DNA of 64,000 nt, taken from assembly GCA_905480645.1 (NCBI GenBank), contig CAJQRC010000013.1, forward strand, positions 1-64,000, read 5' to 3'. This stretch comes from an uncultured Tateyamaria sp. GTDB taxonomy: Bacteria; Pseudomonadota; Alphaproteobacteria; Rhodobacterales; Rhodobacteraceae. Positions 8,228-28,851 of this stretch are shown one piece after another; position 1 is the first letter of the stretch, and every line of letters begins with the position of its first letter. A program made the translations under genes and the position numbers. Under the pieces are notes generated by a model. It saw only the letters and a program-made list of their open reading frames with translations. It was not told where the DNA came from and made no database searches.

Positions 8228-9499
8228 TCAAATTGATATTTTATTTAAAATAGCTAACGCAGCGTCACGGACACCATTTCCTTTCTTCATCTTATCTGAA
8301 ATCTCTCGCATGCGGGTTATCATTAAATTGTCGTTTAGCAAGGCGGTCATGATTTGCCTTAGCTCTTGAGGGGTCCATGAAGCACGTTGCATGTTCACGC
8401 CAGTGTTGGTTTGTAAGGCTCGCAAGCCATTGTCATGGCCGTCCCAACAGTATGGCATGATTAGTGAAGGAACTCCAAAGTGTAGTGCTTCACAATAGCT
8501 GTTGTTACCACCGTGATGGATAAATAAATCAGCTTGTGAAACGATTGAGGGCTGTGGAAACCAGCTGCCGAGGTATACGTTATCAGGCACTTGCTGGTAG
8601 CTTTCCAAGAATTCTCCAACGTTCACGAAGAAACGAGCAGGTATTGTCGCGAAAACTGCGATTATGCGGCTAATCAAATCGGTGTCGATCGCGCCAAGAC
8701 TACCAAAACTCAGGTAGACAATGGGGCCTTCATTCACAGGAAGAGGTGGTGGCTCAAACTGGGCCTCTTCACGAACGCAGCCATCTAAAAACACGAACTG
8801 ATCTTCTGGAAGTGGTGTTGCGCGTTCATAGCGGATACTCTTTGGCGCCAAGAGTAGGTTCAAATGCGGCGAGGTTTCTAAAAACTGGCCGGCAGGTAAT
8901 GCAGCTAAGCCACGCGCGCGTCGGAATATGTTGTAGCGCTTTTGTGCGGGTAGTGTGGTTTTGATGTAAGCGGATTCAAACGCAGGACGCGCGGGGTCAT
9001 CTGCAGCCATGCCGGACAAATAAGGTGGTATGTTAATGTCTGGAATTTCAGTTTCAGCACAAGAAACGACCCTGATCCACGGTACACCCGCATTTGCGAT
9101 TGCCGGGAACATGATGACGTTATCAAGAACAATGCCATCTGGTTTTATCCGTTTCAGCAACTGTGATAGACCGTCTTCCACCTGAATGGCCGTATCTACG
9201 ATAGCTTCCCATGTTGGCCCAACATAGGTTTTTAATTGCTCAGTTGGGTTCTGATTGAAGTGTTCGAGATGGGCCGTAACAAAAGCTTGCCATGTTTCTT
9301 CGTTTTGATGCTGTGCCTCAGCGCTTTGCGGCAGTTGGTATTCTTTGAAACCATATTCAGCGAACACGCCATTAAAACCTGGATGGCACAGAAACACAGG
9401 TGTACTGCCTTGGTGCTGCAGTTGTTGCGCAATTCCAACACAATTTAGAGCAGAACCAAAACTGGCTTCGGGAAACAGCGCGATGACTGGTTTTTTCAT
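8228..9499 (-). CDS. Glycosyltransferase, UGT/MGT (GT1-like)
   Basis: IVYLSFGSLGAIDTDL and SWFPQPSIVSQADLFIHHGGNNSYCEALHFGVPSLIMPYCWDGHDNGLR, the C-terminal nucleotide-sugar binding region of GT1 enzymes. Confidence 0.85.
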   Translation of the reverse strand: MKKPVIALFPEASFGSALNCVGIAQQLQHQGSTPVFLCHPGFNGVFAEYGFKEYQLPQSAEAQHQNEETWQAFVTAHLEHFNQNPTEQLKTYVGPTWEAIVDTAIQVEDGLSQLLKRIKPDGIVLDNVIMFPAIANAGVPWIRVVSCAETEIPDINIPPYLSGMAADDPARPAFESAYIKTTLPAQKRYNIFRRARGLAALPAGQFLETSPHLNLLLAPKSIRYERATPLPEDQFVFLDGCVREEAQFEPPPLPVNEGPIVYLSFGSLGAIDTDLISRIIAVFATIPARFFVNVGEFLESYQQVPDNVYLGSWFPQPSIVSQADLFIHHGGNNSYCEALHFGVPSLIMPYCWDGHDNGLRALQTNTGVNMQRASWTPQELRQIMTALLNDNLMITRMREISDKMKKGNGVRDAALAILNKISI

Positions 9500-10452
9500 G
9501 CAAGTGCTCCTCTTCCCATGGGTAGAATGCCCCGATTGAGAGTTTGGGGTTTGCGAATTTGGCTGCGGCGCAAATGCACTACCATTTGGTCGGCGGCAAG
9601 CCGAAGTTGCGAGCGTTCAAGGCTATCCAGAATATCAAGGTGTTCTTCGAGTGATTGTCGTAAGCGAAAATTAGGGATGGAGTGGTTTTTTTGCGTGGAC
9701 AGCCGCAAGCGTTGATGCGCAAGCAAAGTGCCTTTGACGAAACGGTTGCCGGAGCTTTCAGCGATAAAGCTGTGAAATGCGCAATCCAGATGTAGGAATG
9801 CTACAGCGCTTAATGCTCCATCAGGCCGCAGCGCAAACTCTTGCAATTGCTGCCGCAAAAGTCCTGTTTTTTGGCTGTCCATTCGAAATCCAGGCGCTGT
9901 TATGGCCTGTGGTTCCAACGACAGGCGAAAGGCAATGCTATCATTAAGTGCGTTTGAGCTGTCTAGAATCGGCTGGAAAGCCCATGCGCGGCCAGGAAGT
10001 TGCACGACAATCCCGTCGCTACTTAGTATTTTTAGCGCATTTAATACAGATGACCGTGGAACGTCGTACCGCCTTACAAGTGCGCTGACTGACTGGATAT
10101 CTGTAATTCGGCGCTCTGCGCGATCTGACAAAATACGTGTTGCCAGACTGTCTTCCATATCCTCCAGATCGGACAAGCCTCCAGCTGCAATGCGTTCAGG
10201 GCTAACGTGTAGAAAATATCCACCTTCCTCACGGCGCTGAACAATACCATTGTTTTCTAGTAGTTTTAATGCAGATCTAATGGGAGTACGCGATACGCCG
10301 CAGGCCTTTGATAGTGTGGACTCCGGCAGATGAGCGCCCTCTGCAAAGCCACGCTCAAGGACCACTTCGGTGATTTTACGGGCCAACTTCAAATGGTTTT
10401 GACGTGTATTACTGCGGGGTTGTAGCATCGGTGTCTTTCTAAAGGTCTGCAT
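9496..10452 (-). CDS. GntR-family transcriptional regulator
   Basis: GFAEGAHLPESTLSKACGVSRTPIRSALKLLENNGIVQRREEGGYFL winged HTH, with a second wHTH-like segment (VSALVRRYDVPRSSVLNALKILSSDGIVVQLPGRAWAF). Confidence 0.85.
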   Translation of the reverse strand: MQTFRKTPMLQPRSNTRQNHLKLARKITEVVLERGFAEGAHLPESTLSKACGVSRTPIRSALKLLENNGIVQRREEGGYFLHVSPERIAAGGLSDLEDMEDSLATRILSDRAERRITDIQSVSALVRRYDVPRSSVLNALKILSSDGIVVQLPGRAWAFQPILDSSNALNDSIAFRLSLEPQAITAPGFRMDSQKTGLLRQQLQEFALRPDGALSAVAFLHLDCAFHSFIAESSGNRFVKGTLLAHQRLRLSTQKNHSIPNFRLRQSLEEHLDILDSLERSQLRLAADQMVVHLRRSQIRKPQTLNRGILPMGRGALA

Positions 10453-10623
10453 GGCAGTTTGTTTCCTCGTGTGGCATCAGAAGAGAAAAGACCGCAAAAA
10501 CAAATTGACGTATATTTTGTTGCATTAATACTGCTTTAAAGCGTCGCTTGAGAAACGCAAATAAAAAACAGTCACCCCATCGGGGAGACATTCAACAGAT
10601 GTAACATTTTGGAGGTATTTTAG

Positions 10624-11670
10624 ATGTCACGACTTTCCCCGCGCAGCAGCGTTTGTGCAATTGTGGCGCTGGCTGCGTTTTCCGCGCCTGCATTCGCTGA
10701 ACCCCTTACCGTTTCCAATTGGGACGGATACATGGCTGCCGATACTATCGATGCATTTAACACGGCGTCCGGCAATCAGGCTGAACTGGTCCTGCACGCG
10801 ACAAACGAAGAAATTATGGGAAAGTTGATTGCGGCCAAAGGTGTCGGCTACGACGTTGTTTTCGTTTCTTCACCTTTTGCAGAAGTTCTAAACAACCTTG
10901 GCCTTGCTGAAACTTTGGATCACGCCAAAATTCCAAATATTGCTAACCTATATTCAGAAGCCACAGAACTGCCGCATGATCCCGGCAATTCCTTCTCGTT
11001 GCCATATGCATGGGGTACCACAGGATTATGTTATAGATCTGACCTGGTTGATACTCCAACTTCCTGGGGTGATTTGCTCGCGCCAGAAGCGGATGTTGCA
11101 GGTAAAACAACAATGCTCGCCACGGATCGCTGGTTACTTGCAGCAGGCCAGCTTCAACTGGGTTATTCTGTAAACGAAACTGATCCTGACAAAATGGCTG
11201 AGGTTCGTGATCTGTTGATTGAAGCCAAAAAATCATTGTTGGCTTACGATGATACGACATTTTATGCGAAGTTGGTGTCAGGTGAAGCTGAACTGGTTCA
11301 CGCATGGGATGGGTGGTGCAACTATGGCATTGGTGAAAACGCTGACATCAAATACATGATCCCTGAAGAAGGTTCTGATCTCTGGGTTGACACTATGGTA
11401 ATTTTGAAAGCCTCAGAAAATAAAGATGCAGCATATGACTTTGTGAACTTCATTCTGGATGCTGACAATCATCGATGGGCTGCTGAAAACATTCTTTACA
11501 AAGTGCCAAATAAGGCTGCGATGGATGGTGTGGACGCAGGCTTGATTGAAACTTTCCCCAATATGGGCATGGCGCCTGCGGATATGCTAAAGTTTGAACA
11601 GATGCGGGATGTTGGCGCAGCACAGCGTGATTATTCGCGCCTTGTATCAGAAATCAAAGCCGCAAATTGA
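10624..11670 (+). CDS. potD: Spermidine/putrescine-type ABC transporter substrate-binding protein
   Basis: Signal peptide; LTVSNWDGYMAADTIDAFNTASG and LPYAWGTTGLCYRSD typical of PotD/PotF family. Confidence 0.85.
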   Translation: MSRLSPRSSVCAIVALAAFSAPAFAEPLTVSNWDGYMAADTIDAFNTASGNQAELVLHATNEEIMGKLIAAKGVGYDVVFVSSPFAEVLNNLGLAETLDHAKIPNIANLYSEATELPHDPGNSFSLPYAWGTTGLCYRSDLVDTPTSWGDLLAPEADVAGKTTMLATDRWLLAAGQLQLGYSVNETDPDKMAEVRDLLIEAKKSLLAYDDTTFYAKLVSGEAELVHAWDGWCNYGIGENADIKYMIPEEGSDLWVDTMVILKASENKDAAYDFVNFILDADNHRWAAENILYKVPNKAAMDGVDAGLIETFPNMGMAPADMLKFEQMRDVGAAQRDYSRLVSEIKAAN

Positions 11671-11681
11671 AACTTTCAAAT

Positions 11682-11710
11682 TGCCTCTGAGTGTTTAACA
11701 TTCGGGGGCA
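11682..11710 (+). terminator. Hairpin directly downstream of potD-like gene, followed by TTTTCCTTTC
   Basis: TGCCTCTGAGTG-TTTAA-CATTCGGGGGCA, 12 pairs including G-T wobbles. Confidence 0.6.
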
Positions 11711-11757
11711 TTTTCCTTTCATTATAACGCCAGATTCTTTTGGTGCTGGGTCCCGTA

Positions 11758-12621
11758 ATGTCCACTGATCGCAGAGCTCTTATTTTGATGTCACCTGCCA
11801 TTTTGTGGTTATTGGCCCTGATGGTAGTGCCTTGTGTATTGATCTTGGTATTGGCTTTTTTCCAACGGGGTATTTATGGTGGGATTGAGTATACATGGAC
11901 GCTTGAAAACCTAGCGTTAGTTTTCGATCCACTTTACTTTAAAATTTTTCTTAAGTCGGCTGGGATCGCTGGTCTATCTGCTGGCATCGCTTGCGTTTTA
12001 GGCTATGCTGCTGCCTATGCGATTGCGGCTATGCCGCGTCGTAATCAGCCTTTGCTGCTGTTTTTTGCGGTGCTTCCATTTTGGTCAAATTATCTAGTGC
12101 GCACATATGCGTGGATCGTGCTGCTCAACCGCGAAGGTTTGATTGTGAACCTTGCGCGTTGGATTGGATACCAAGGCGAACTGCCAAGTATGCTCTATAC
12201 CGAACAGGCTGTGGTGATTGGTCTTGTTTATAATTACTTACCCTTTGTAATCCTCAGCTGTTATGCGCCGCTATCTCGCTTGAACCCAGAAATCACCGAG
12301 GTATCGCGTGACCTTGGGGCCTCTGCATGGACGACTTTCCGCCGAGTGACGCTGCCAATGACCGTGCCTGGTATCGCAACGGGATTTGTCTTCGTCTTCG
12401 TTCTATCAATTGGTAATTTTGTAACGCCAGCCTTGCTGGGGGGTGGTCAGTTCCAGATGATTGGTAACCTTGTCTATGCTCAATTTCTGACGGCAAACGA
12501 TTGGCCCTTTGGCGCAGCTCTTTCGATGGTGCTGATCGCAGTGATGCTTGGCCTTTTGATGGCGCAAGCCACGGTGGCCGAGCGAGCGGCGGGTATGAAG
12601 AAAGATCAAGGCAATGGCTGA
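11758..12621 (+). CDS. potB: Polyamine-type ABC permease (PotB-like)
   Basis: Hydrophobic; ITEVSRDLGASAWTTFRRVTLPMTVPGI EAA loop. Start at MSTDRRAL preferred over the longer ORF (11740). Confidence 0.85.
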   Translation: MSTDRRALILMSPAILWLLALMVVPCVLILVLAFFQRGIYGGIEYTWTLENLALVFDPLYFKIFLKSAGIAGLSAGIACVLGYAAAYAIAAMPRRNQPLLLFFAVLPFWSNYLVRTYAWIVLLNREGLIVNLARWIGYQGELPSMLYTEQAVVIGLVYNYLPFVILSCYAPLSRLNPEITEVSRDLGASAWTTFRRVTLPMTVPGIATGFVFVFVLSIGNFVTPALLGGGQFQMIGNLVYAQFLTANDWPFGAALSMVLIAVMLGLLMAQATVAERAAGMKKDQGNG

Positions 12622-13402
12622 GCGTAACACCTTTCGTTTGATGTTATTAATTCTTGGCGTTGTTTTTGCCTTTCTCTACATTCCGATTTCAGTGCTTGTT
12701 GGCCTGTCCTTCAATGAAGGTGGCTTGCCAACTGCGTGGACTGGGTTCTCCTTTAAATGGTATGGCGCTTTATTGGAAAATGATGACATTTTAGGTGCGG
12801 CGGCCAATACGGTTGTGGTTGCAATTTGTTCCACTATTCTTTCGACTTTTTTGGGAACTTTTCTCGCGGTTGGAGTGGAAATTCGGCGGCGCAATGGCAA
12901 GTGGTTGGAGACGGTTATTTTTGCACCAATGATTATTCCTGACATTGTTCTGGCGATTGCGCTACTGAGCTTTTTCTCTTTGCTTGGCGCTAAAATGGGT
13001 CTTCATACAATCATTGTCAGCCATGTTGTGTTCAATCTTGCATTCGTGTGCGCTGTAGTGCGTGCGCGTTTGAAAAGCTTCGATTGGTCAATTGTGGAGG
13101 CCTCTGCTGATCTTGGGGCCTCGACTATAACCACACTGTACCGCGTTATGGTTCCGGTGCTCACCCCTGCCATTGTGGCTGGGGCTTTGCTCGCATTTAC
13201 GCTGTCTGTCGATGAATTTATAATAGCTTTTTTCACTGCGGGGGCAGGCCGGTCTTCAATTACCTTGCCAATGCAGATTTATGCGATGATCCGTTTTGGT
13301 GTAACGCCCGAGATTAACGCGCTGGCATCTATTGTTATGACCGTTTCAGTGATCTGTCTTGCCCTTTCTCAGCGGCTGAATAAAGGGGGCCTGTCGGGAT
13401 AA
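12614..13402 (+). CDS. potC: Polyamine-type ABC permease (PotC-like)
   Basis: IVEASADLGASTITTLYRVMVPVLTPAIVAGALLAFTLSVDEFIIAFFTAG. Confidence 0.87.
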   Translation: MAERNTFRLMLLILGVVFAFLYIPISVLVGLSFNEGGLPTAWTGFSFKWYGALLENDDILGAAANTVVVAICSTILSTFLGTFLAVGVEIRRRNGKWLETVIFAPMIIPDIVLAIALLSFFSLLGAKMGLHTIIVSHVVFNLAFVCAVVRARLKSFDWSIVEASADLGASTITTLYRVMVPVLTPAIVAGALLAFTLSVDEFIIAFFTAGAGRSSITLPMQIYAMIRFGVTPEINALASIVMTVSVICLALSQRLNKGGLSG

Positions 13403-14463
13403 TGAACCAATCGTTTCTGAGCATACAAAAGGTCCAAAAAAACTTCGGCCCTGTTACAGCGGTGACTGGTGTGACCTTGGATATCCGTGAGAACGAATTC
13501 TTTGCCCTATTGGGAGCGTCAGGCAGTGGTAAAACTACGTTGCTTCGGATGCTTGCTGGGTTTGAAAAACTGAGCGGTGGTGATGTGCAGCTTGAGGGTT
13601 CTAGCATCGCACATTTACCGCCAAACCAGCGGCCTTTGAATTTGATGTTCCAATCTTATGCATTGTTCCCACATATGACTGTGGCGCAAAACATTGCCTA
13701 TGGTCTTGAGATGGACAAGTTGCCAAAGAAGCAGATCAAAGCTAGCGTCGATGAAATCTTGCAAGTTATTCAGTTGGAACACTTACGTAATCGCAAGCCG
13801 GATCAGTTGTCTGGTGGACAAAGTCAGCGTGTTGCTTTGGCGCGAGCTTTGGTCAAAAGACCCAAGGTTTTGTTGTTGGATGAACCGCTTGGTGCGCTCG
13901 ACAAAAAGCTACGAAGTGAAATGCAGCTTGAGCTAAAACGCTTGCAAGTAGAGTTTGGCATCACCTTTATCATCGTGACCCACGACCAAGAAGAAGCGTT
14001 GGTTATGGCTGATCGCATTGCCATTATGAAAGATGGTGGTTTGTTGCAAGTAGGAACGCCGCAAGAGATTTACGAAGCCCCTGAAAGCCGTTTTGCGGCT
14101 GATTTTATAGGAGTGATGAACTTTCTTCCGATTAGGAAATCAAGCCAAGGTTTTGTGACTGCAAATGGCTTAGCCATTAAAGCCAATCAGATCAACAACT
14201 CTGCCTCTAACAGTGATGCCGTTGCGGCCATTCGCCCTGAACGCCTTATGATCGGAGAAAATGGCGACAATGCGTTAAGCGGTGAGATTACCGCCATTGC
14301 CTATCACGGTCTGGATTTGTTGTTGCACTTAAAAACTGATCTTTCGGAGACACCCATTGTTGTGCGTATGACAGCAGATGTCGCTGAGGCGCATTGCCCC
14401 TCTACGGGGCAACAAATCAATGTCAGTTGGTACGCTAAAGATACTCATATTTTTTTCGCATAA
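13402..14463 (+). CDS. potA: Polyamine-type ABC ATP-binding protein (PotA-like)
   Basis: LLGASGSGKTTLLRMLAGFE, LSGGQSQRVALARALVKRPKVLLLDEPLGALDKKLR. Confidence 0.9.
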   Translation: MNQSFLSIQKVQKNFGPVTAVTGVTLDIRENEFFALLGASGSGKTTLLRMLAGFEKLSGGDVQLEGSSIAHLPPNQRPLNLMFQSYALFPHMTVAQNIAYGLEMDKLPKKQIKASVDEILQVIQLEHLRNRKPDQLSGGQSQRVALARALVKRPKVLLLDEPLGALDKKLRSEMQLELKRLQVEFGITFIIVTHDQEEALVMADRIAIMKDGGLLQVGTPQEIYEAPESRFAADFIGVMNFLPIRKSSQGFVTANGLAIKANQINNSASNSDAVAAIRPERLMIGENGDNALSGEITAIAYHGLDLLLHLKTDLSETPIVVRMTADVAEAHCPSTGQQINVSWYAKDTHIFFA

Positions 14464-14497
14464 ATCGAACATTACAACATGACAGAGGAGACACCCC

Positions 14498-15775
14498 ATG
14501 AAACAGAAAACATTTGCCTTCTTTCCCGAAGCTGCTTTTGGCCCAGCGCTGAACTCGGTTGGTATTGCTCAAGCCATAACTGCGATGGGGCATAAAGCTG
14601 TCTTTCTGTCTGACCCCGGATTTGTTGAAATCTACGAAGGTTACGGTTTTGAAGCTTATCCAGTGGCCTTGTCTGAGCCAATGCCAGCAGATCAAATGGC
14701 CAAGTTTTGGGAAGACTTTATTAATGGACACATCCCCAATTTTCGTAAAGCTCCAATTGACCAAATTGATAACTATGTCAAAGAATGTTGGGAGGCGATT
14801 GTTGACAGTGCCAAGTGGGCGGAAAAAGATTTGCCTAGCGTTCTGGCTAAAATCAAACCAGATGTGATTGCTGTAGATAACGTTATCCTGTTTCCAGCAA
14901 TCAAGCAGTTTGGTGTGCCTTGGGTGCGCATTATTTCATGCTCTGAGAACGAAATTGAAGATCCGGCTATTCCACCGCATTTGTCTGGGATGTCCGAAAA
15001 TGACACGGTGGGACACTCTGCATTCCGTGCCAAGTTTGAAGAGATCATCGCGCCAATCCATGCGGATTTCAACGATTTCCTCACGTCCTGTGGTGAAGAC
15101 TCTTACAAATTAGGCGAGTTTTTTGAAGCTTCACCACATATGAATATGATGCTTTATCCAGAGCCGTTGACTTACACGCGTGATACGCCTTTAGACCCTG
15201 CCCGTTTCCAATATCTAGAGGGCTGCGTGCGTGAAGATGACGCTTATACTGTGCCAAAATTCGGAGTGAACAACGATGGCCCGTTACTCTACATTTCTTT
15301 TGGATCACTCGGCGCGGGTGACACCGATCTGCTGAAACGTTTGATAACGCTAGTTGGTAAATCACGTTACCGTGCATTGGTTAATGTCGGGGACTATAAA
15401 AACGACTACACTGATATCCCGCCAAACGTCATTATTGAGGATTGGTATCCGCAACCTTCTGTCATTCCGCAAGTTGATGCTGTCATCCATCATGGGGGCA
15501 ATAACTCGTTCACAGAATGCCTGTATTTTGGTAAGCCTGCGATCATCATGCCTTACGTTTGGGATGGCCATGATAATGCTATGCGTGTGCAAGAAACTGG
15601 CTATGGATTTCGCTCCGATCGCTATGAATGGACTGATGAGGAAATGATTGCCAAGATTGAAGCCTGCCTGACCAATGCTGAAATGGCTGAAAAGCTGGGT
15701 AAAATTTCGAAGCATATGCAGTCTTGTGAAGGACCAAAAAAGGCTGCGAAACTTCTGGCAGGGTTGGTAGAATGA
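14498..15775 (+). CDS. Glycosyltransferase, UGT/MGT (GT1-like), paralog of 8228..9499
   Basis: FFPEAAFGPALNSVGIAQAITAMGHKAVFLSDPGF; LLYISFGSLGAGDTDLLKR; WYPQPSVIPQVDAVIHHGGNNSFTECLYFGKPAIIMPYVWDGHDNAMR. Confidence 0.87.
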   Translation: MKQKTFAFFPEAAFGPALNSVGIAQAITAMGHKAVFLSDPGFVEIYEGYGFEAYPVALSEPMPADQMAKFWEDFINGHIPNFRKAPIDQIDNYVKECWEAIVDSAKWAEKDLPSVLAKIKPDVIAVDNVILFPAIKQFGVPWVRIISCSENEIEDPAIPPHLSGMSENDTVGHSAFRAKFEEIIAPIHADFNDFLTSCGEDSYKLGEFFEASPHMNMMLYPEPLTYTRDTPLDPARFQYLEGCVREDDAYTVPKFGVNNDGPLLYISFGSLGAGDTDLLKRLITLVGKSRYRALVNVGDYKNDYTDIPPNVIIEDWYPQPSVIPQVDAVIHHGGNNSFTECLYFGKPAIIMPYVWDGHDNAMRVQETGYGFRSDRYEWTDEEMIAKIEACLTNAEMAEKLGKISKHMQSCEGPKKAAKLLAGLVE

Positions 15776-16131
15776 GCCAGTTAAACTCTTCTGCCCCACA
15801 TATTCATAATGCAACCGGCTTTGAGGATGTTGTGGATTGGGGTCCCCAACCTGACTTGTTGGAAGGGGCGTCTCATTCAACTGGTCGTTTGTTGCACAAG
15901 GGACCAGATAACATCCCTGAAACTGGCATTTGGGATTGCACGCCTGGCCGTTGGCGACTGTCCCTGCCTCGTGACGAGTTCTGTCACTTTGTTTCTGGTC
16001 GCGCGCGTTACACCCATGATAACGGCGAGGTAATCGAAGTCATTGCAGGCACCTGCGTTCTTTTTCCCAAGGGATGGTCGGGCGTGGCAGAAATTTTTAA
16101 AACTATTCGCAACATTTACATGCTAACATGA
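15772..16131 (+). CDS. Cupin-domain protein (DUF861/cupin_3-like)
   Basis: WDCTPGRWRLSLPRDEFCHFVSGRARYTHDNGEVIEVIAGTCVLFPKGWSG; ATGA overlap with GT gene. Confidence 0.8.
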   Translation: MSQLNSSAPHIHNATGFEDVVDWGPQPDLLEGASHSTGRLLHKGPDNIPETGIWDCTPGRWRLSLPRDEFCHFVSGRARYTHDNGEVIEVIAGTCVLFPKGWSGVAEIFKTIRNIYMLT

Positions 16132-16141
16132 GGCAATACAT

Positions 16142-16486
16142 ATGAAAACTCCTGTCATGCGCGCACCACTTGAGATCACCGAAACTGTCGATTGGGGCGT
16201 CATACCGACCATGATTGAAGGCACTTCAAAAGTCAGTGGCGTTGTTCTGCATAAAGGCCCTGAAGGACAATCTGAGTGTGGCCTATGGATTTGCACTCCA
16301 GGGAAATGGGAGTGCCACGTCACCAGTGATGAATTCTGCCATTTCTTAGAGGGGCGTTGCACTTACGTTCATAAAAGTGGCGATGTGATTGAGGTCATGC
16401 CGGACACAGCAGCGTTTTTCCCTCAAGATTGGAAAGGTATTTGTACTGTCCATGAAACGATTAAAAAGGTCTATATGATCCGATGA
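16142..16486 (+). CDS. Cupin-domain protein (DUF861/cupin_3-like), tandem paralog
   Basis: WICTPGKWECHVTSDEFCHFLEGRCTYVHKSGDVIEVMPDTAAFFPQDWKG; colinear with the preceding cupin. Confidence 0.8.
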   Translation: MKTPVMRAPLEITETVDWGVIPTMIEGTSKVSGVVLHKGPEGQSECGLWICTPGKWECHVTSDEFCHFLEGRCTYVHKSGDVIEVMPDTAAFFPQDWKGICTVHETIKKVYMIR

Positions 16487-17508
16487 ATATATTGGGTGCA
16501 CCTCTCACGCTTGCGCCGCCGATCGCTACATTCTTGGCTCGTCACGGTCAGAGCGGTGCAGAGCTTGAACTACTTCCTGGTGATGCTTCTGCGCGCAGCT
16601 ATATTCGTTTGGTGAACGTGGGTAATCTGCTGATGGAGGATCGCACTGACCCGGCTGGCTTTGCAGCGTTTATTCGTCTGGCGCGTCACCTAAACAGCCT
16701 TGGTCTGAGCGCACCTCGGGTAATTGGAGCGGAGCCTGCGGCAGGTTTGGCCTTGATCGAGGACTTTGGTACCGCAACATACGGCACTCTGTTAAATGAC
16801 GGGTACAACGAAGCAGCGCTCTATGAACTTGCAATTGACGTATTAGTGCATTTGCATAGCGCGCAGAACGCCATATCGGTCACTGTGCCTGCCTACGATA
16901 CTGCGACACTTCTAGAAGAGATTTCGATATTTTCGCACTGGTTTGTTCCAGGTTTTGCGCCAGAAATCAATGTTGCTAAATTTGATGAACGATTTTGTGA
17001 GGTTTGGAAAAAGGCGCTGATGCCGCTTGAAGAAGCGCCGAAAGCTTTGGTATTGCGAGACTTTCATATAGATAATTTAATGCTCCTTCAGGACCGTGCA
17101 GGTGTCGCGGCATGTGGGTTGCTTGATTTTCAAGATGCAGTAATAGGGGCTGCTGAATATGATCTTATGTCGCTTCTGCAAGATGCGCGCCGTGATCTTG
17201 CGAACGGTCTAGAGGACGCAATGTTACGCCGTTATCTAAATGCAATTCCTGCGTTTTGTGGCACAGAGGATGCAATAATGCAGCGCTATTATCTACTTGC
17301 TGCACAACGGCATACTCGGTTAGTGGGATTATTCCCTCGTTTGAAATTGCGTGACGGAAAAGCGAATTATTTGAAATTCATGCCACGCGTCTTGAGGCAA
17401 ATGCAGACCGCGTTGCGGATGGCAAAACTATCTGAAATTTGTGATTTTCTTGACGACACTTTGCGAGGATGGCGAGATGCTGCCCCTGCAATGTCTAAAC
17501 TCTCGTAA
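16483..17508 (+). CDS. Aminoglycoside phosphotransferase (APH)-family kinase, AmgK/COG3178-like
   Basis: LVLRDFHIDNLMLLQD...GLLDFQDAVIGAAEYDLMSLLQDARRDL catalytic loop and DFQDA motif. Confidence 0.8.
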   Translation: MNILGAPLTLAPPIATFLARHGQSGAELELLPGDASARSYIRLVNVGNLLMEDRTDPAGFAAFIRLARHLNSLGLSAPRVIGAEPAAGLALIEDFGTATYGTLLNDGYNEAALYELAIDVLVHLHSAQNAISVTVPAYDTATLLEEISIFSHWFVPGFAPEINVAKFDERFCEVWKKALMPLEEAPKALVLRDFHIDNLMLLQDRAGVAACGLLDFQDAVIGAAEYDLMSLLQDARRDLANGLEDAMLRRYLNAIPAFCGTEDAIMQRYYLLAAQRHTRLVGLFPRLKLRDGKANYLKFMPRVLRQMQTALRMAKLSEICDFLDDTLRGWRDAAPAMSKLS

Positions 17509-17519
17509 AGGACCATCTG

Positions 17520-19028
17520 ATGCAGCTTGATACCCAAGCACCAACTTACTTTGTCGCTCCTAATTTCTACCCCACGCAAAATGCGGGGTACGACGTCGAG
17601 GATCCAGCTAAATTAACCAAGGTTGGCGTGCGTGGCGAAGTTACTGTTGATGAAATCGACAGCGCTTTGTCACTTGTGAATTCTGCTCAAACTCAGTGGA
17701 AAATTCTTGACGCAAAATCGCGTGCCACTGCTTTGCATACCTTGGCGAACCGCATCGAAAATATGGACCTTACTGACTGTGCGATCTTGATGAGCCGCGA
17801 GATGGGTAAACCTTACCCAGAAGCAATTGGTGAGCTTGCCAACTGTGCGCCTATTTTTCGCTACTACGCAGAAATGGCGCGTGACGAAGCTGGTAAGGTT
17901 GCAGGCACCACTCAAAAAGGTTCCATGCAATTTGCTAAATACGAACCGTTGGGCGTATCTGTTCACATTATGCCGTTCAATTTTCCGGTGCTCTTAATGT
18001 GCTGGACTGTGGCGGCGTCTCTGGCTGCAGGAAACGGCTGTGTGGTTAAGCCAGCTGAGGCGACCACATTGTCGACTTTGGAATTTATGAAGGCCTTTTC
18101 AGTTTTGCCTAATGGTTTGATTGCCTGTCTTCCGGGTGGCGCTGAGGTCGGCAAAGCGCTGGTTTCCAGTACTAAAACTCATGCAGTTGCATTCACAGGT
18201 TCAGTTGCAGCAGGTCAGGCTGTTGCCACAGCTGCAGCGGCTAAAATGAAACCTGTAGTGATTGAGGCGGGCGGATCTGATCCGATGATTATCACTGCGC
18301 ATGCACCAATTGACATTGCAGCGGCCGGTGCTGTTACCGGCGCATTTCATATGACGGGGCAGGTTTGCACCTCGACCGAACGGATGTATGTTGTGGACAG
18401 CGTGCATGATGAGTTCGTCTCAGCGTTTACGGCCGAAACTGCGCGGCTGCGCATAGGCAATGGATTGGATAAATCTGAGATTGGGCCGCTTGTTAGCAAA
18501 GCAGCGCGTGACAAAGTCGAACGGCTTATTGCGGACGCAATTGCCAAAGGTGCGAAAGTTGAATGTGGTGGGCGTATCCCTCCTACGCATCAAACAGGCT
18601 GGTTCTATGAGCCGACAATCCTTACCAATTGTACGGTAGATATGGCGCTTATGAATGAAGAGTGTTTTGGTCCAGTTGTTGCTATTATTCGGGTTCCCGA
18701 CTTTGACGCTGCAATTGACGGAGCAAATGCTTCTGAATTTGGGCTTGGAGCATCGATTTTCACTACCTCTCTTGAGGAGGCTCATGAAGCCCATGAACGC
18801 ATAGAGGCGGGGATGGTGTGGATCAATAACCCACTGATTGATAACGATGCTTTACCATTCGGGGGATGGAAAAACTCAGGCATTGGGCGTGAATTGGGGC
18901 GCATGGGACTTGACACTTTTCGCCGTACAAAGATGGTGATCTTGGATCATAAACCAGTGCGCCATGACTGGTGGTACCCTTACCCAGACGATTGGTTCCT
19001 AGACGCGGGTGGACGCAAAATTTCTTAA
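17520..19028 (+). CDS. Aldehyde dehydrogenase (succinate-semialdehyde dehydrogenase-like)
   Basis: VAFTGSVAAGQAV; VIEAGGSDPMII; GQVCTSTERMYV catalytic Cys; NEECFGPVVAI. Confidence 0.9.
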   Translation: MQLDTQAPTYFVAPNFYPTQNAGYDVEDPAKLTKVGVRGEVTVDEIDSALSLVNSAQTQWKILDAKSRATALHTLANRIENMDLTDCAILMSREMGKPYPEAIGELANCAPIFRYYAEMARDEAGKVAGTTQKGSMQFAKYEPLGVSVHIMPFNFPVLLMCWTVAASLAAGNGCVVKPAEATTLSTLEFMKAFSVLPNGLIACLPGGAEVGKALVSSTKTHAVAFTGSVAAGQAVATAAAAKMKPVVIEAGGSDPMIITAHAPIDIAAAGAVTGAFHMTGQVCTSTERMYVVDSVHDEFVSAFTAETARLRIGNGLDKSEIGPLVSKAARDKVERLIADAIAKGAKVECGGRIPPTHQTGWFYEPTILTNCTVDMALMNEECFGPVVAIIRVPDFDAAIDGANASEFGLGASIFTTSLEEAHEAHERIEAGMVWINNPLIDNDALPFGGWKNSGIGRELGRMGLDTFRRTKMVILDHKPVRHDWWYPYPDDWFLDAGGRKIS

Positions 19029-19053
19029 ACGCAGCTTAAATAAGGAGGCAAAT

Positions 19054-19104
19054 ATGTACAAAACTCAATTGTGTATAGGAAGTGTTTATGGCTTTTGCTT
19101 CTGA
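19054..19104 (+). other. Possible 16-aa leader ORF
   Basis: AAGGAGG 7 nt before ATG; MYKTQLCIGSVYGFCF*. Not in the supplied ORF list. Confidence 0.3.
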
Positions 19105-19177
19105 CAGTAGCTTTGCGGTGGTTATTGTGGTGACAGAGCTATTGGATGCCATAATATCTCCTGGTGATTGGTCATGA
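19088..19177 (+). CDS. Possible 29-aa small protein coupled to the FAD oxidoreductase gene
   Basis: MAFASDSSFAVVIVVTELLDAIISPGDWS*; AGGAAG upstream; its TGA overlaps the downstream ATG (ATGA at 19174). Confidence 0.35.
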   Translation: MAFASDSSFAVVIVVTELLDAIISPGDWS

Positions 19178-20562
19178 CGCCGAGCTATAAATTTAGCGAT
19201 GCAAAATCATTACCATTTTGGTTTACAACTGTTCCGGTAACGGCCGATTGCGCACCTGCATCTCAAGATGCAACCTATGATCTGGCCATTGTTGGTGGAG
19301 GTTTTACAGGTCTTTGGAGCGCACTTAAAGCACGTGAACGCAATCCTGACGCAAAAATAGCTGTGCTTGAAGGGAAGCGATGTGGCCAAGATGCCAGCGG
19401 ACGCAGCGGTGGCTTTTGTGCACCTTCGATTTCCCATGGAGCCTCAAACGCCTTAACGCGTCATCCCAGTGAAGCGGAAACACTAATTCGTTTGGGGCAA
19501 GAGAACCTAGATGACTTCGCGCGGGACCTTGAGCGATATGAGATACAAGGTGAGTTTGAACAAGCTGGTAAGTTAAATGTTGCGACAACCCCATGGCAGA
19601 TTGAGGGCTTGCACAGCATGGCGCAAAACTACTCGCGCTTTGGTATTGCACATGAGCTGTTGGTGGGTGACGCGCTGAAGGAAAAGCTTGATAGTCCAGT
19701 CTACAGTGCAGGTCTGTTTGAGCCAAGCTATGGCCTTGTTAATCCAGCGAAGGTGGTATCTGAGCTGCGCCGCGTTTGCCTTGCACAAGGCGTCGAAATT
19801 TTTGAAAATACTCCTGTCACCTCATTGAAGCGCGACGACGACATGATGGGAGTGCAAACGCCAAGCGCTTATATCCGCGCTAAGCAGGTCATTTTGGCGA
19901 CTAACTCTGCTAAGCCACTGTTAAAGCGTCTGAGTATGTCGTTCATTCCAATTTATGACTACTCGTTGATGACCGAAACTTTGAGTGAGGAGCAGTGGGC
20001 CAGCATTGGATGGTTGGGGAGCCATGGCATTGCGGATAGTGGTAATCAGTTCCACTATTTTCGTAAGACTGCTGATAATCGGATGCTCTGGGCGGGCTTT
20101 GACGCGATCTACTATTACGGTAGTGATCGTAATGACGAGCTATTGCAACGGCCGGAAAGCTTTGCGCTTTTGGCCGACCAATTTGTTTTGGCTTTTCCAA
20201 CTTTGGCCGATGTTAAGTTTGATTTTAAATGGGGTGGCATCATTGATACCTCTGCGCGCACGACGTTCTTTTCAGGTTTGGCGCATCGCGGGCAGGTGGC
20301 TTATGCGATGGGATTTACTGGGCAAGGGGTTACGGCCAGCAGGTTTGCGGCATTGACGATGCTGGACCGGCTTGGGTCTTTTAACACTGAACGTACGCGT
20401 CTAAAAATGCCACGCAGGTTTGCTATACCTTTCCCGCCCGAACCACTGCGTAGTGCGGCGGTAAAATTGGCGCAAAAAAGCTTGGCTCAGGAGGACGCAA
20501 CGGGCAAGCGCGGGGGCTTCTTGAAGCTTCTGGATACCTTTGGAATCGGTTTTGATTCTTGA
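19174..20562 (+). CDS. FAD-dependent oxidoreductase (DAO family, PuuB-like)
   Basis: YDLAIVGGGFTGLWSALKARERNPDAKIAVLEGKRCGQDASGRSGGFC dinucleotide-binding motif; C-terminal MGFTGQGVTASRFAA. Confidence 0.88.
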   Translation: MTPSYKFSDAKSLPFWFTTVPVTADCAPASQDATYDLAIVGGGFTGLWSALKARERNPDAKIAVLEGKRCGQDASGRSGGFCAPSISHGASNALTRHPSEAETLIRLGQENLDDFARDLERYEIQGEFEQAGKLNVATTPWQIEGLHSMAQNYSRFGIAHELLVGDALKEKLDSPVYSAGLFEPSYGLVNPAKVVSELRRVCLAQGVEIFENTPVTSLKRDDDMMGVQTPSAYIRAKQVILATNSAKPLLKRLSMSFIPIYDYSLMTETLSEEQWASIGWLGSHGIADSGNQFHYFRKTADNRMLWAGFDAIYYYGSDRNDELLQRPESFALLADQFVLAFPTLADVKFDFKWGGIIDTSARTTFFSGLAHRGQVAYAMGFTGQGVTASRFAALTMLDRLGSFNTERTRLKMPRRFAIPFPPEPLRSAAVKLAQKSLAQEDATGKRGGFLKLLDTFGIGFDS

Positions 20563-21280: not shown

Positions 21281-22450
21281 TTAGGCCCCTTGGTCAATGC
21301 TGAGTTGGAAAGATGTATCCATTTGGCTCATGAGATATTGCGCGAAATCAAAGTTGGGTCGTTCAAGGTGGGATAGGTGCCCAGGTGTTGCTCCGTCTGC
21401 TGAAAGGCCGCGATAAACCTTTTCGGTGCAGCCACGATCCTCTATGTTCACATCATCCAGAAGGGTCTTGAGATCAATCAGATTTTGATGCGCTTCCACA
21501 TCATCCTTGTAGTCATCAGACATGCCACCACCAAAGCGGATCTTTACTTGCCCCGGTCCCTTTGGATGCAGGCTTAGATACCAGAAATATCCAGGGGTAA
21601 GGGTGATCAGCAGACTAGGATAAATCGCAAGCAGAAACGTTGTTCGGCGTTCGTCCCCTTGTAAACGTTTGTTGTAAGGGTGTGCCAATGCGATGCGCAG
21701 GGACTCTTCTTTGAGGATGGTGTGATAGTTAAATGCCTTGCGCCCGGGCGGACAGATCATCTCATCCAATCTAGAAAGCCCACCGATGGTACCCGCGTGG
21801 CAGACTGGCAGATGGTAGCTTTCCATGAAATTTTCGGCCAACACCTTCCAGTTTGTGTCCCAAAGGTGTTCTTCAAAGAATGTTTCCGTATAATTAGTCA
21901 TGTCGTAGCCTGAGACCAGATCTGCGACTTCGCTCAATTCTTCGGCAACAGGCCGGGCATTAGGGTTCAAGGTGATAAACACCCACCCCAACCAGTCTTC
22001 ACAGGTAATATTGGGCAGACTGTATTCATCTTTACAGAATGCTTTATTGCCGTCCATCGCCGGGGCGCCACGCAGGCTGCCATCAAGATTGTAAGTCCAT
22101 GCGTGGTAAGGACAAACAATTGTTCTCGCGTTGCCGCGTCCATGCAAAAGAGTAGACATTCGGTGGCGGCACACGTTTGAATATGCTCGTAGGGTGCTGT
22201 CTTTGTCGCGTAAAACGATGATTGGCTGGCTCGCCAGTTCACAGGTCACATAGTCGCCTACTTTAGCCAATGCACTTGCCCGCCCAACGCAGAACCAAGA
22301 TTTCTTAAATACGTTCTCCAGCTCTGCATCATGAAAAGTGTCAGAAGTATATACCTCAGGCGGCATTGCGCGCGCTTCATCAAACGGAACAGAGACATTG
22401 GCGCGCAAAGCTTCGATTGGGTTTGGAATTGGTTTAGTTCTGTTCATCAC
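21281..22450 (-). CDS. Rieske non-heme iron oxygenase alpha subunit
   Basis: Rieske motif CRHRMSTLLHGRGNARTIVCPYHAWTYNLDGSL; NWKVLAENFMESYHLPVCHAGT mononuclear iron motif. Confidence 0.93.
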   Translation of the reverse strand: MMNRTKPIPNPIEALRANVSVPFDEARAMPPEVYTSDTFHDAELENVFKKSWFCVGRASALAKVGDYVTCELASQPIIVLRDKDSTLRAYSNVCRHRMSTLLHGRGNARTIVCPYHAWTYNLDGSLRGAPAMDGNKAFCKDEYSLPNITCEDWLGWVFITLNPNARPVAEELSEVADLVSGYDMTNYTETFFEEHLWDTNWKVLAENFMESYHLPVCHAGTIGGLSRLDEMICPPGRKAFNYHTILKEESLRIALAHPYNKRLQGDERRTTFLLAIYPSLLITLTPGYFWYLSLHPKGPGQVKIRFGGGMSDDYKDDVEAHQNLIDLKTLLDDVNIEDRGCTEKVYRGLSADGATPGHLSHLERPNFDFAQYLMSQMDTSFQLSIDQGA

Positions 22451-22673
22451 TCTGGTCCCATTTTCATGCTGAGGCAGAGTTAGAATCGCTTTAGTTGTTT
22501 TGAATTTCTATCGGATTTACGACATGCGCCATGTCGTGTCACTCCTGCGATAAATTATGACGCAACTCCTAGGACTACCTTAACCTATGCCCCAACACTA
22601 AAACTGCTAGATTTAATGCGCATAATGCAACTAAACAGATAAACTAAATGTTGTATAGACCGATTTAAATTTT

Positions 22674-23738
22674 CTAAATTACGCACCCTCGGGCATCAAT
22701 TTGCAATTCTGCAAGACTTCCGTTTTCATCTTCAATCCAAATATCATCAAACATGTTCGACACCACACATACATGGTTTGGCACGATCCTGATGCGCTCA
22801 CCAATGACAAGTTGCCTTTCTGGGGTAACCGCCAAAACGCCGTGTTCTTCGCTTAGACCAACTATTTTAATTTCTGGTTTGCCAACAACATGGCCATAAT
22901 CAGAGAAGCCCAAAAGATCAGAGGTCAGTACCTTTGATCCTGCATCGATGATTGCGCGGTCAGGCGTAGGTATACTGACGACCGTTGCTAGAACATGACC
23001 TGCACATTCACCCCATGTACAAGTCCCGCGCTGGACCAGTGAACGGTCGTTATAGATATAGGTTCCAATGCGGTATTCGGTAATGATACCAGCTGTAGTT
23101 GCATTCCACATATCTGGTGAGCCACCTGATGAAACGACTGGACACACAATTCCTTTTGCGCCCAGAAGCTGTTTTGTATCTCGCATAAATTGTGCTGCAT
23201 CCTTGCTGCCGTTTGCCGCTGGGTATGTCATCAAGCCCCCAAAGATTAAGCCAGATATGTGAGAAATTTTTTCAGCTAATTCCAAAGCTGCCTTTGGAGT
23301 TTGCACTCCACAACGCCCAGCACCCGTATCACATTCAACTAAAATAGTGAGTGGGAGCGGTGCCGCTTCAAAGGCTTGTCCTAATCCCTGAATTACTTCT
23401 GCATTGTCCGCAACGACCGATAAAGCGGCAAGACGGCTTGATAGGGCACGCAGGCGGCCCAGTTTTTCAGGGCCAATAATGTTGAAGGTGATCAAAATAT
23501 CATTAATTCCGGAATTGATCATCGCTTCAGCTTCGCTAATTTTTTGGCATGTGATACCGATTGCGCCTGCTGCCATTTGAGCTTTGGCAAAATGGATGGA
23601 TTTGTGGGTTTTAATATGTGGGCGCAGCGCAAGGCCAACTTCGTTACAATGGCTTTGGAACGCTGTTATATTCCTTAGTGCGACAGCTTCATTAACGATA
23701 AATGTGGGTGTATTGACCGAGGTTACGTTATCAACCAT
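22674..23738 (-). CDS. PLP-dependent D-serine dehydratase / D-threonine aldolase family enzyme
   Basis: LRPHIKTHKSIHFAKAQ (PLP lysine), GITCQKISEAE, VPNHVCVVSN C-terminal metal-site-like motif. Confidence 0.85.
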   Translation of the reverse strand: MVDNVTSVNTPTFIVNEAVALRNITAFQSHCNEVGLALRPHIKTHKSIHFAKAQMAAGAIGITCQKISEAEAMINSGINDILITFNIIGPEKLGRLRALSSRLAALSVVADNAEVIQGLGQAFEAAPLPLTILVECDTGAGRCGVQTPKAALELAEKISHISGLIFGGLMTYPAANGSKDAAQFMRDTKQLLGAKGIVCPVVSSGGSPDMWNATTAGIITEYRIGTYIYNDRSLVQRGTCTWGECAGHVLATVVSIPTPDRAIIDAGSKVLTSDLLGFSDYGHVVGKPEIKIVGLSEEHGVLAVTPERQLVIGERIRIVPNHVCVVSNMFDDIWIEDENGSLAELQIDARGCVI

Positions 23739-25200
23739 GAGGGTTTTCCACGCGAGGCCAGATGTCTCTGGTCAGATTGCTATAGGAGTTGGTCTTGGGG
23801 TCGTTGGGATAGGGGCCATCCACTGCAGCGTATAGAATATCTTGCGAAATCCGAGAAAATGCATCGTAAAAATGGTTGGTTGATTTAACGATCAGGGTTT
23901 TCTTACTCTTAGGGTTGATTCCAAAGTTGGAAAAAATGTCTGGGTTGAAGACCTGACTTCTTACAGAGTTTAATATGACGTCGATCCCACCCACTTCAAT
24001 CCATACTGCGTCACCTAAAGGGACAATACTCTGACCAAAGCTTTGGACTGCGTCACGCACAGCTCTCCTAACGATGACGTATGCGTCCATGGGCTCACCG
24101 GCAAACTTGGACATTTTGGCGCCAAAGCGCAGCTGAAATTGGGCACCCTCTCCAGCAGAAAAACAAGTGCGGACAGCAATTGGATCCCAGATGGTTGCTA
24201 AGGCGGCATTCTTAATCCTGCGACGCAACAGTTCTCGTAATAAAATCGTGGAATCCCCTGGAACGCCGCCGCCGGGATTGTCCCATATGTCTGCAATCAC
24301 CACAGGCACCGCTTTGGACACTTCAGCTTTATCAAAAGCTTCGTTTAAAGTTAGAAATTCGGGTCGTGTCTTACCGCGCATCGAGAATAATTCAGCCCCT
24401 AGCTCTGCGGCTAGTCGGTCACCGCCGCTTTGGTCATTATCTGTCACAACAACAACCCGCGACCCAAGGTCAGGCACATCACCAGCCATAAACCCGTGAA
24501 TGACTGAGATAGATAGAACTGACCCCTGCCCCTCAAGCGCTTTAATCTTGTCGACAAACCCGCGCATCGGCTCTCGGCTAGTTGGTAAAACTTCGATCAT
24601 TTTACAATCAAAGCTGCTGATCACAGGGTTAATGTCACCCAGTGACGTGCGGTGCACCAAGGTCATTAAGTTTTCGGCTACTTCAACAAAATCAGTATGT
24701 GGAAATTCTTTAAAAATTGTTATCAAATTTGTATTTTCTATCCAGCGTTTGGAAAGATGGCTGTGTGGATCAAAGGTTGCGCCAATAATTGCCGCTGTGC
24801 CAACAATCTCGCGCACTGCGGCCAGCAATTCCCCCTCACAGTCCAGACAGCCTTGCGAAACCATGGCACCATGTAGGCCAAGGATGACGATGTTGACAGG
24901 CATAGCTGTCCGGAGTTCTGTCAGGAGTTGGTCACGCAGAAATTCCCATGTCTGCTGATTTACAATGCCTCCTGGTTCTGCCCAAGATGCGGTTCCTTCA
25001 ACGATTTGCCAGTTAAACTCTGCCGCACGAGCGCGAGCGGCTGGGTAAACGGCACTGCACAAAGTCGGCGTCTTTGGGTGCATGCCGGGAGGGGCATAGA
25101 AGCTTTCTTTGAAATCCAGAATATCCGTTCTCAGCGGTGAAAAAGTGTTGGTTTCTGTCGCGATTGAGCCTAAAAAAACGCGCTTGGAACTTTGCATCAC
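23731..25200 (-). CDS. M81 family metallopeptidase (MlrC-like)
   Basis: GSIATETNTFSPLRTD; ILGLHGAMVSQGCLDCEGELLAAVREIVG; ATFDPHSHLSKR; DIWDNPGGGVPGDST. Confidence 0.9.
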   Translation of the reverse strand: MMQSSKRVFLGSIATETNTFSPLRTDILDFKESFYAPPGMHPKTPTLCSAVYPAARARAAEFNWQIVEGTASWAEPGGIVNQQTWEFLRDQLLTELRTAMPVNIVILGLHGAMVSQGCLDCEGELLAAVREIVGTAAIIGATFDPHSHLSKRWIENTNLITIFKEFPHTDFVEVAENLMTLVHRTSLGDINPVISSFDCKMIEVLPTSREPMRGFVDKIKALEGQGSVLSISVIHGFMAGDVPDLGSRVVVVTDNDQSGGDRLAAELGAELFSMRGKTRPEFLTLNEAFDKAEVSKAVPVVIADIWDNPGGGVPGDSTILLRELLRRRIKNAALATIWDPIAVRTCFSAGEGAQFQLRFGAKMSKFAGEPMDAYVIVRRAVRDAVQSFGQSIVPLGDAVWIEVGGIDVILNSVRSQVFNPDIFSNFGINPKSKKTLIVKSTNHFYDAFSRISQDILYAAVDGPYPNDPKTNSYSNLTRDIWPRVENPHG

Positions 25201-26009
25201 ACGAGCTCCCTTCCGGTTTTGACTCTTGGAATAGAGCTGAGAAGTTTGCGAGTGTATTCATGTTTGGGCGCTTCAAATATTTCATTTTTCAGGCCAATTT
25301 CCACGATTTTTCCCTCATGCATGACTGCCACTCGATTGCTGATGTGGCGCACAACACCCAAATCATGGCTGATGAACAGCATCGATATACCACTATCCTG
25401 TTGCAGTTTTTTGATCAGGTTCAGCACCTGCGCCTGAATAGATACGTCTAACGCTGATACGGCCTCATCCGCGATTACCAGTTTGGGTTTAAGAATCATA
25501 ACGCGTGCAATCCCGATGCGTTGGCGCTGACCGCCAGAAAACTCATGTGGATGGCGTTTCATAACCATTGGGTCCATTCCAACCGTTTCCAGCATTATTG
25601 CTATTTTGTTGCGTGCCTCTTCCCAGGTGCTGCATAAGCCGTGGATAAACAATGGCTCGCCTAAGGTCTGCTCAATTTTGAGGCGTGGGTTAAGCGAGGC
25701 AAATGGATCTTGAAAGATCATTTGAATTTCTCGCCGTAATGGACGGAATTCAGAAGATGACATCATTAAAAAATCTTGACCTTCAAACAAAGCATGTCCC
25801 GATGTTGCTTGTTCTAGGTGAGTAAGAGTACGTCCGACTGTGGATTTGCCACACCCAGATTCACCCACAAGGCTAAGGACTTCACCAGGAGCAATTTCGA
25901 AAGAAACTCCATCAACAGCTTTGATTACCTGCTTTTTGCCAAATGGCCACAGTGATTTGGTGTGGTAATGTTTTTTGAGATCAACAATACTCAGCAACGG
26001 CTCACTCAT
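25197..26009 (-). CDS. dppF: Di/oligopeptide ABC ATP-binding protein (DppF/OppF-like)
   Basis: [50 protein letters not shown]. Start at MSEPLLS. Confidence 0.9.
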
Positions 26010-26980: not shown

Positions 26981-26984
26981 GTGA

Positions 26985-28780: not shown

Positions 28781-28811
28781 ATCAACCTCAATTGACTGGA
28801 ATAAGTGAGTT

Positions 28812-28841
28812 AGCCCCCCACCTAAAGATGGGCAGGAGGCT
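28812..28841 (-). terminator. Hairpin directly downstream of dppA-like gene
   Basis: Minus strand AGCCTCCTGCC-CATCTTTA-GGTGGGGGGCT, 11 pairs including wobbles. Confidence 0.55.
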
Positions 28842-28851
28842 GGGGAGAACC

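Follow-up and report, generated by a model that had tools for sequence, protein, structure and literature searches.

The first 64,000 nucleotides of contig 13 (CAJQRC010000013.1) in the 3.07-Mb genome assembly of an uncultured Tateyamaria sp., the whole of which stretch we call the window, contain a block of twelve genes at positions 8228 to 20562. Two glycosyltransferase (GT) genes, GTa and GTb, are placed on either side of a polyamine-type ATP-binding cassette (ABC) importer, and GTb is followed by genes for two cupins, a kinase, an aldehyde dehydrogenase (ALDH) and an oxidase dependent on flavin adenine dinucleotide (FAD). An initial annotation had interpreted this arrangement as a pathway in which the oxidase and the ALDH act on an amine masked by glycosylation and/or phosphorylation, an interpretation that is partly supported by the comparative evidence presented here. 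Its inventory of twelve genes, their coordinates and overlaps and the boundaries of the block are all borne out: every named gene is an intact open reading frame scoring above its Pfam cut-off, and the genes to either side are not conserved. The features of the block are as follows.

8228–9499, minus strand: GTa, a glycosyltransferase like the uridine diphosphate (UDP)-glycosyltransferases (UGTs) of family GT1 and a paralogue of GTb (PF06722 and PF00201, above cut-off)
9496–10452, minus strand: GntR/FCD transcriptional regulator, divergent from the transporter operon (PF00392 and PF07729)
10505–10532, plus strand: promoter, TTGACG and AATACT with a 16-bp spacer; the motif is kept upstream of potD in relatives
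10541–10558, no strand assigned: imperfect palindrome GCGTC-N8-AACGC, candidate GntR operator; a similar repeat lies at the equivalent place in relatives
10624–11670, plus strand: PotD-like solute-binding protein with an altered ligand pocket (PF13416)
11740–12621, plus strand: PotB-like permease (PF00528)
12614–13402, plus strand: PotC-like permease (PF00528)
13402–14463, plus strand: PotA-like ATPase (TIGR01187 potA, 378.8 bits against an NCBIfam cut-off of 355.6)
14498–15775, plus strand: GTb, a GT1-fold glycosyltransferase without the catalytic histidine (from Pfam, a structure model and residue counts)
15772–16131, plus strand: cup1, Cupin_3 (DUF861/EutQ-like; PF05899), overlapping the GTb stop codon
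16142–16486, plus strand: cup2, Cupin_3 (PF05899)
16483–17508, plus strand: APH-fold kinase of AmgK type, proposed to be an anomeric sugar kinase (PF01636; best NCBIfam match AmgK, below cut-off)
17520–19028, plus strand: ALDH1, aldehyde dehydrogenase (PF00171)
19174–20562, plus strand: DAO-fold FAD oxidase (PF01266)

Translational overlaps between GTb and cup1 (4 bp), cup2 and the kinase gene (4 bp) and PotB and PotC (8 bp) are consistent with an operon; PotC and PotA also overlap, by 1 bp, as do GTa and the GntR gene, by 4 bp. The oxidase is present and belongs to the DAO family as annotated, but its gene, first called from 19168, more likely begins at the ATG at 19174, the methionine that is conserved among relatives. 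GTa and GTb, which share 44% identity, are the sole matches to the UDPGT family in the genome.

Conservation of the block

Homologues of GTb at 65–88% identity were drawn from 80 of the 143 loci found in the GTDB genome collection, to which plasmid loci were added. Our survey of gene neighbourhoods covered 87 loci with a GTb of at least 55% identity, 62 of them with full flanks, and neighbouring genes were assigned by codon-position scoring and tblastn. These 87 loci span alphaproteobacteria, gammaproteobacteria and two haloarchaeal plasmids, and in 83 of them a cupin gene directly follows GTb. Conserved synteny had been set in advance as a check on the initial annotation, and the block of GT, Pot, cupin and ALDH genes is indeed conserved across Rhodobacterales and beyond, recurring in Rhizobiales, relatives of Halomonas, Marinomonas and Pseudomonas. 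The recurrent order is GTa-GntR and, divergently, potDBCA-GTb-cupin-cupin-(kinase)-ALDH-(ALDH2-uridylyltransferase-DAO-cupin3), the genes in brackets being variable. Among the loci with full flanks the most constant partner of GTb is cup2 (61 of 62), followed by ALDH (58), PotB, PotC and PotA (56), PotD (55), GntR (54) and cup1 (52); a second GT of any kind occurs in 50 and GTa itself in 49, while the kinase (37), DAO (33), ALDH2 (30), cup3 (24) and uridylyltransferase (20) come and go.

Divergence is also correlated between members of the block. Pairwise distances among GTa, GTb, GntR, PotD and PotA show Spearman correlations of 0.69–0.87 (0.87 for GTa and GTb, 0.84 for GTb and PotD), and the value for GTa and the APH-fold kinase is 0.91. 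The distances of cup2 and ALDH correlate less closely with those of the same five genes (0.38–0.56), which in the case of cup2 is possibly a consequence of its high conservation. Close homologues of GTb are sporadic: 15 of the 393 genomes examined in the order have one, as do 8 of the 398 in the phylum. The cluster is an accessory, conserved unit and not a chance assembly.

Conservation extends to the region between the divergent transcription units. Ahead of potD, 27 of 61 loci, for the most part from alphaproteobacteria and halomonads, have a near-constant promoter, and a repeat resembling GCG(A/G)T-N8-A(T/C)CGC occupies the equivalent site in 14 of the 61; the palindrome in the window would suit the GntR regulator and is a candidate for its operator.

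Several loci carry abbreviated or rearranged versions. The smallest unit of the system is a GTb-cupin pair with no transporter, ALDH or kinase, in some cases behind a GntR gene (L073:10001-11649, L098:8968-11645, L099:275-2997 and L111:640-2906). A rearranged version occurs in a metagenome-assembled genome (MAG) of Halieaceae (L064:7576-18626), where GTb is accompanied by cup2-kinase-ALDH and a different transporter as well as by DAO, a flavin amine oxidase and a PhyH-type dioxygenase.

Active sites of the encoded proteins

GTa and GTb form two separate clades, with supports of 0.92 and 0.95. The model of GTb (predicted local distance difference test, pLDDT, 92) adopts the GT-B fold, and among solved structures those nearest to both enzymes are the spider-mite UGTs UGT203A2 and UGT202A2 (E 3e-58), with template-modelling (TM) scores for GTb of 0.89 and about 0.8 respectively. 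A bacterial origin has been proposed for the UGTs of mites, and the GT family of the amine operon may lie close to their donor lineage. In common with GT1 enzymes, the two proteins keep the UDP-binding signature (W-PQ and HxGxNSxxE; W316, Q319, H332, N336, S337 and E340) and with it the contacts to uracil, ribose and phosphate. They depart from GT1 enzymes in the placement of their genes within an amine operon and in two features of the active site: the histidine of the catalytic His-Asp dyad is missing from all 135 sequences (54 GTa and 81 GTb), in which Asp127 is kept, and the DQ sugar motif has become DG, D356 being retained and the glutamine replaced by Gly357 in 135 of 135. An outgroup homologue, L116, retains DQ, and lacks E150 and D155, which are invariant in the operon enzymes. 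Plant GT1 enzymes with cysteine in place of the catalytic histidine prefer N-glycosylation (PMC12246196), and the H19Q variant of UGT72B1 was reported to keep 1/300 of its O-transfer and half of its N-transfer activity (PMC8558338). Given these plant enzymes, an amine acceptor fits the loss of histidine in GTa and GTb. The change from glutamine to glycine could make room for a 2-acetamido group and, together with the GlmU-type gene described below, suggests N-acetylglucosamine (GlcNAc) as the sugar.

The importer has the gene set of the PotABCD and PotFGHI polyamine systems, and the nearest solved structures to its binding protein are PotD and PotF, which bears out the label 'polyamine-type' as far as family is concerned. 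A polyamine substrate is another matter, since the ligand pocket, which is invariant across 63 loci, differs from theirs in its acidic contacts. The positions of E36, D168 and E171, amine-binding acidic residues of E. coli PotD in its own numbering, are occupied here by G35, T167 and W170; D257 is kept as D256, and Asp34, Asp229 and Lys293 are invariant instead. These replacements make putrescine or spermidine doubtful as the ligand, and we rejected a transporter of canonical polyamines because the pocket residues do not fit one. A monoamine that bears a further group, polar or acidic, appears more likely from the residues present. The invariance of the pocket further implies that all carriers probably import one and the same compound.

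The kinase has the APH fold, as annotated, and the APH catalytic motifs RDFHxxN and LDFQD are conserved in its homologues. Its label can be refined, however, because it is closest to AmgK-type sugar kinases and not to aminoglycoside resistance enzymes; AmgK is its best NCBIfam match (223 bits against a cut-off of 500), and the only solved structure related in sequence, 3csv, is titled aminoglycoside phosphotransferase. Some relatives carry an additional gene, absent from the window and lying either after ALDH1 or between ALDH2 and DAO, whose product matches the N-terminal (uridylyltransferase) domain of GlmU alone, in some cases with a short piece of the second domain remaining. It scores 289–375 bits against GlmU models, below the full-length cut-offs as expected of a truncated form, and shares motif blocks with the GlmU of the host genome. 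This gene is present in 20 of the 37 kinase-bearing loci and in none of the 25 without a kinase (p = 2.7e-6). The host genome itself has only a full-length GlmU for the uridylyl step, and a second AmgK-like gene elsewhere. The two haloarchaeal plasmids, from Natrialba magadii and Natronorubrum aibiense, carry after their GTb-cupin-ALDH unit the genes for a ROK sugar kinase and for a mutase most similar to the GlmM of archaea, and adjacent genes encode a Pot transporter, PuuA-like and PuuD-like proteins, an FAD oxidase and aminotransferases. Judged by family, both sets, AmgK-like with GlmU-type and ROK with GlmM-like, would rebuild a UDP-sugar from free sugar. The occurrence of two unrelated sugar-activating sets beside the same GT unit argues more strongly than anything else that a sugar is spent and then regained.

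Both cupins are of the DUF861/EutQ type and match Cupin_3 (57–59 bits against a Pfam gathering score of 23.5). In cup2, Cys58, His59 and Glu64 are conserved and His104 is near-invariant; its model (pLDDT 96) is most similar in fold to the DUF861 protein 3bcw (TM 0.83). Structures of PpnP, a cupin that cleaves the N-glycosidic bonds of nucleosides, are also among the fold matches (TM 0.58–0.63), and this likeness is only a lead towards an unmasking step. We did not adopt cup2 as a PpnP-like N-glycosidic phosphorylase, given that DUF861 outranks PpnP and EutQ is about equal to it. In ALDH1, Cys283 and Glu249 are conserved, and the protein reaches 242 of the 850 bits set for the PuuC model. The oxidase scores 179 bits against PF01266, its nearest NCBIfam model being TIGR03329 (210 of 633 bits).

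A proposed sugar mask for amine oxidation

From the genes and families observed, their synteny, the co-occurrence of kinase and uridylyltransferase, the active-site patterns and the promoter, we infer that the operon is inducible and catabolic and that it serves to degrade one particular small amine under a sugar mask. The PotDBCA-type importer would take up the amine, and GTb and GTa would move a sugar onto it from a UDP-sugar, possibly UDP-GlcNAc. The DAO-type oxidase and then the ALDH would convert the masked amine to an aldehyde and an acid, after which the sugar would be removed, perhaps by the cupins. The AmgK-like kinase would phosphorylate the freed sugar at C1 and GlmU, a housekeeping enzyme here and operon-borne in other species, would restore the UDP-sugar, with the divergent GntR regulator governing both transcription units. 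The inferred part of the model comprises every one of these reactions and their order, the identities of sugar and amine, and what the cupins do, and we put the chances of the model as a whole, from import through masking, oxidation and unmasking to re-activation of the sugar, at about even. With respect to the initial annotation, the glycosyl mask gains support from synteny, the re-activation genes and the histidine-less GTs, while phosphorylation of the masked amine now seems less likely than action of the kinase on the released sugar.

The model has precedents in two known systems. In E. coli, the Puu pathway combines an importer, a masking enzyme, a DAO-fold FAD oxidase, an ALDH and an unmasking step in one regulated cluster, and the proposed system has the same outline. 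It differs in that a glycosyltransferase replaces the glutamine-synthetase-like PuuA, in its additional genes for re-activating the mask and in its transporter and regulator. No PuuA-like glutamine synthetase is present in the window, as had been noted, the five hits in the genome all being on other contigs, and no glutamine amidotransferase that might represent PuuD occurs among the open reading frames and family matches of the block; although Puu-like in outline, the cluster is thus not a Puu pathway. Elsewhere in the host genome there are two adjacent glutamine-synthetase-like genes (G000:C26:84559-87930), and a gamma-glutamylation route may exist alongside. The second precedent is the AmgK/MurU pathway of cell-wall sugar recycling, which likewise pairs an AmgK-family kinase with a uridylyltransferase that would rebuild a UDP-sugar; here, however, the partner is a GlmU-type domain and not MurU, and both are linked to GTs and amine oxidation.

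A number of observations weigh against the proposed pathway. Of the 62 loci with full flanks, 25 have no kinase gene and 29 no DAO, and most, the window among them, lack the uridylyltransferase, so that recycling of the sugar cannot be obligatory; in loci without DAO, that gene may be replaced by unlinked ones. GTb-cupin pairs persist without transporter or ALDH in L073, L098, L099 and L111. The kinase, oxidase and ALDH each fall below every specific NCBIfam cut-off. The surveyed loci are related and not independent, and the p value for co-occurrence of kinase and uridylyltransferase overstates its support accordingly. Finally, the outgroup L116 also lacks the catalytic histidine, without such neighbouring genes, which means that the loss predates the operon and is not by itself proof of N-transfer.

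Some of these points invite other explanations. The GTs might act as O-glycosyltransferases on a hydroxylated amine or on a product of oxidation, an amino alcohol or hydroxy acid for example, with the kinase acting on a pathway intermediate; APH-fold kinases have many substrates and the match to AmgK is below cut-off, and the PotD-like pocket, having lost the acids that would hold a second and a third amine, suits a monoamine bearing an additional polar group. We consider this unlikely, as loss of the catalytic histidine disfavours O-transfer (PMC12246196) and confinement of the GlmU-type uridylyltransferase to kinase-bearing loci fits a sugar as the substrate of the kinase. Alternatively, the compound taken up and degraded might be an amino sugar or a glycosylated amine, and the GTs might recycle its sugar part or catalyse the reverse of transfer; we hold this to be rather improbable. 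GT1 reactions are reversible, and a sugar kinase and uridylyltransferase do handle free sugars, but the uridylyltransferase is anabolic, the binding protein is nearest to polyamine-binding proteins, and neither a 6-kinase feeding a deaminase nor glycosidases are recurrent partners.

The variability of DAO, kinase and cup1, and the genomes in which GTb and cup2 stand alone, could be taken to mean that an ordinary amine operon simply lies beside detoxifying glycosyltransferases, by chance or through loose co-regulation. Against this, alpha- and gammaproteobacteria share the same gene order and orientation, the genes diverge in a correlated manner, and archaea too have the GTb-cupin-ALDH core, making two unrelated units a very improbable account. 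GT, sugar kinase and uridylyltransferase are all of biosynthetic types, and a cluster making a glycosylated amine as a solute, signal or nitrogen store would explain them; yet the importer, the FAD oxidase, one or two ALDHs and a GntR/FCD regulator of the kind usual in catabolic operons point to breakdown, no exporter is recurrent among the neighbours, and we regard biosynthesis as very unlikely. Resistance to aminoglycosides or macrolides was rejected on scores, the GTs reaching 120 and 107 of the 260 bits required for macrolide GTs and the kinase being AmgK-like, and anti-phage defence was rejected in that PADLOC returned no match.

In its most specific form the sugar-mask model would describe a third kind of masked-amine catabolism in bacteria and haloarchaea: a histidine-less GT1 pair would N-glycosylate the amine with GlcNAc, the oxidase and ALDH would act on the glycosylamine, a cupin would cleave the N-glycosidic bond and AmgK and GlmU would return UDP-GlcNAc, the sugar serving as a reusable catalytic handle. 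So complete a scheme is possible but somewhat doubtful. Amines are known to be protected during oxidation by glutamate or acyl groups, and in the papers that we searched there was no description of this cluster or of glycosylated polyamine catabolism. If correct, the model would add to amine breakdown a route parallel to glutamate tagging, and the use of a sugar as mask, with dedicated genes for its re-activation, would be a new principle in the way marine and soil bacteria turn over amines and nitrogen. GT1 enzymes, usually tied to detoxification and natural products, would gain a catabolic role, and a function would be assigned to DUF861 cupins, a group in which most members lack one. Carriers include the culturable Celeribacter baekdonensis B30, Pseudomonas mandelii and Aidingimonas halophila, in which the idea is directly testable.

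Flanking and associated genes

The SnoaL-like, Rieske, D-serine-dehydratase-like and MlrC genes that flank the block lie outside the conserved part in every related locus, apart from a single 30% Rieske match in L107, and the Rieske, MlrC and SnoaL-like neighbours were accordingly rejected as parts of the pathway. On the minus strand at 21281–30414 the window encodes a Rieske oxygenase, a D-serine-dehydratase-like protein, an M81/MlrC peptidase and a peptide-type ABC transporter, none conserved with the amine operon. Elsewhere, some rhizobia and alphaproteobacterial MAGs have a saccharopine-dehydrogenase-like gene after ALDH (L069:13523-14818, L128:15650-16837), weakly matching carboxynorspermidine synthase, and in several Pseudomonas (L084, L089, L093) the opposite strand immediately downstream of the cluster bears an ALDH2-type gene and another set of Pot-type transporter genes.

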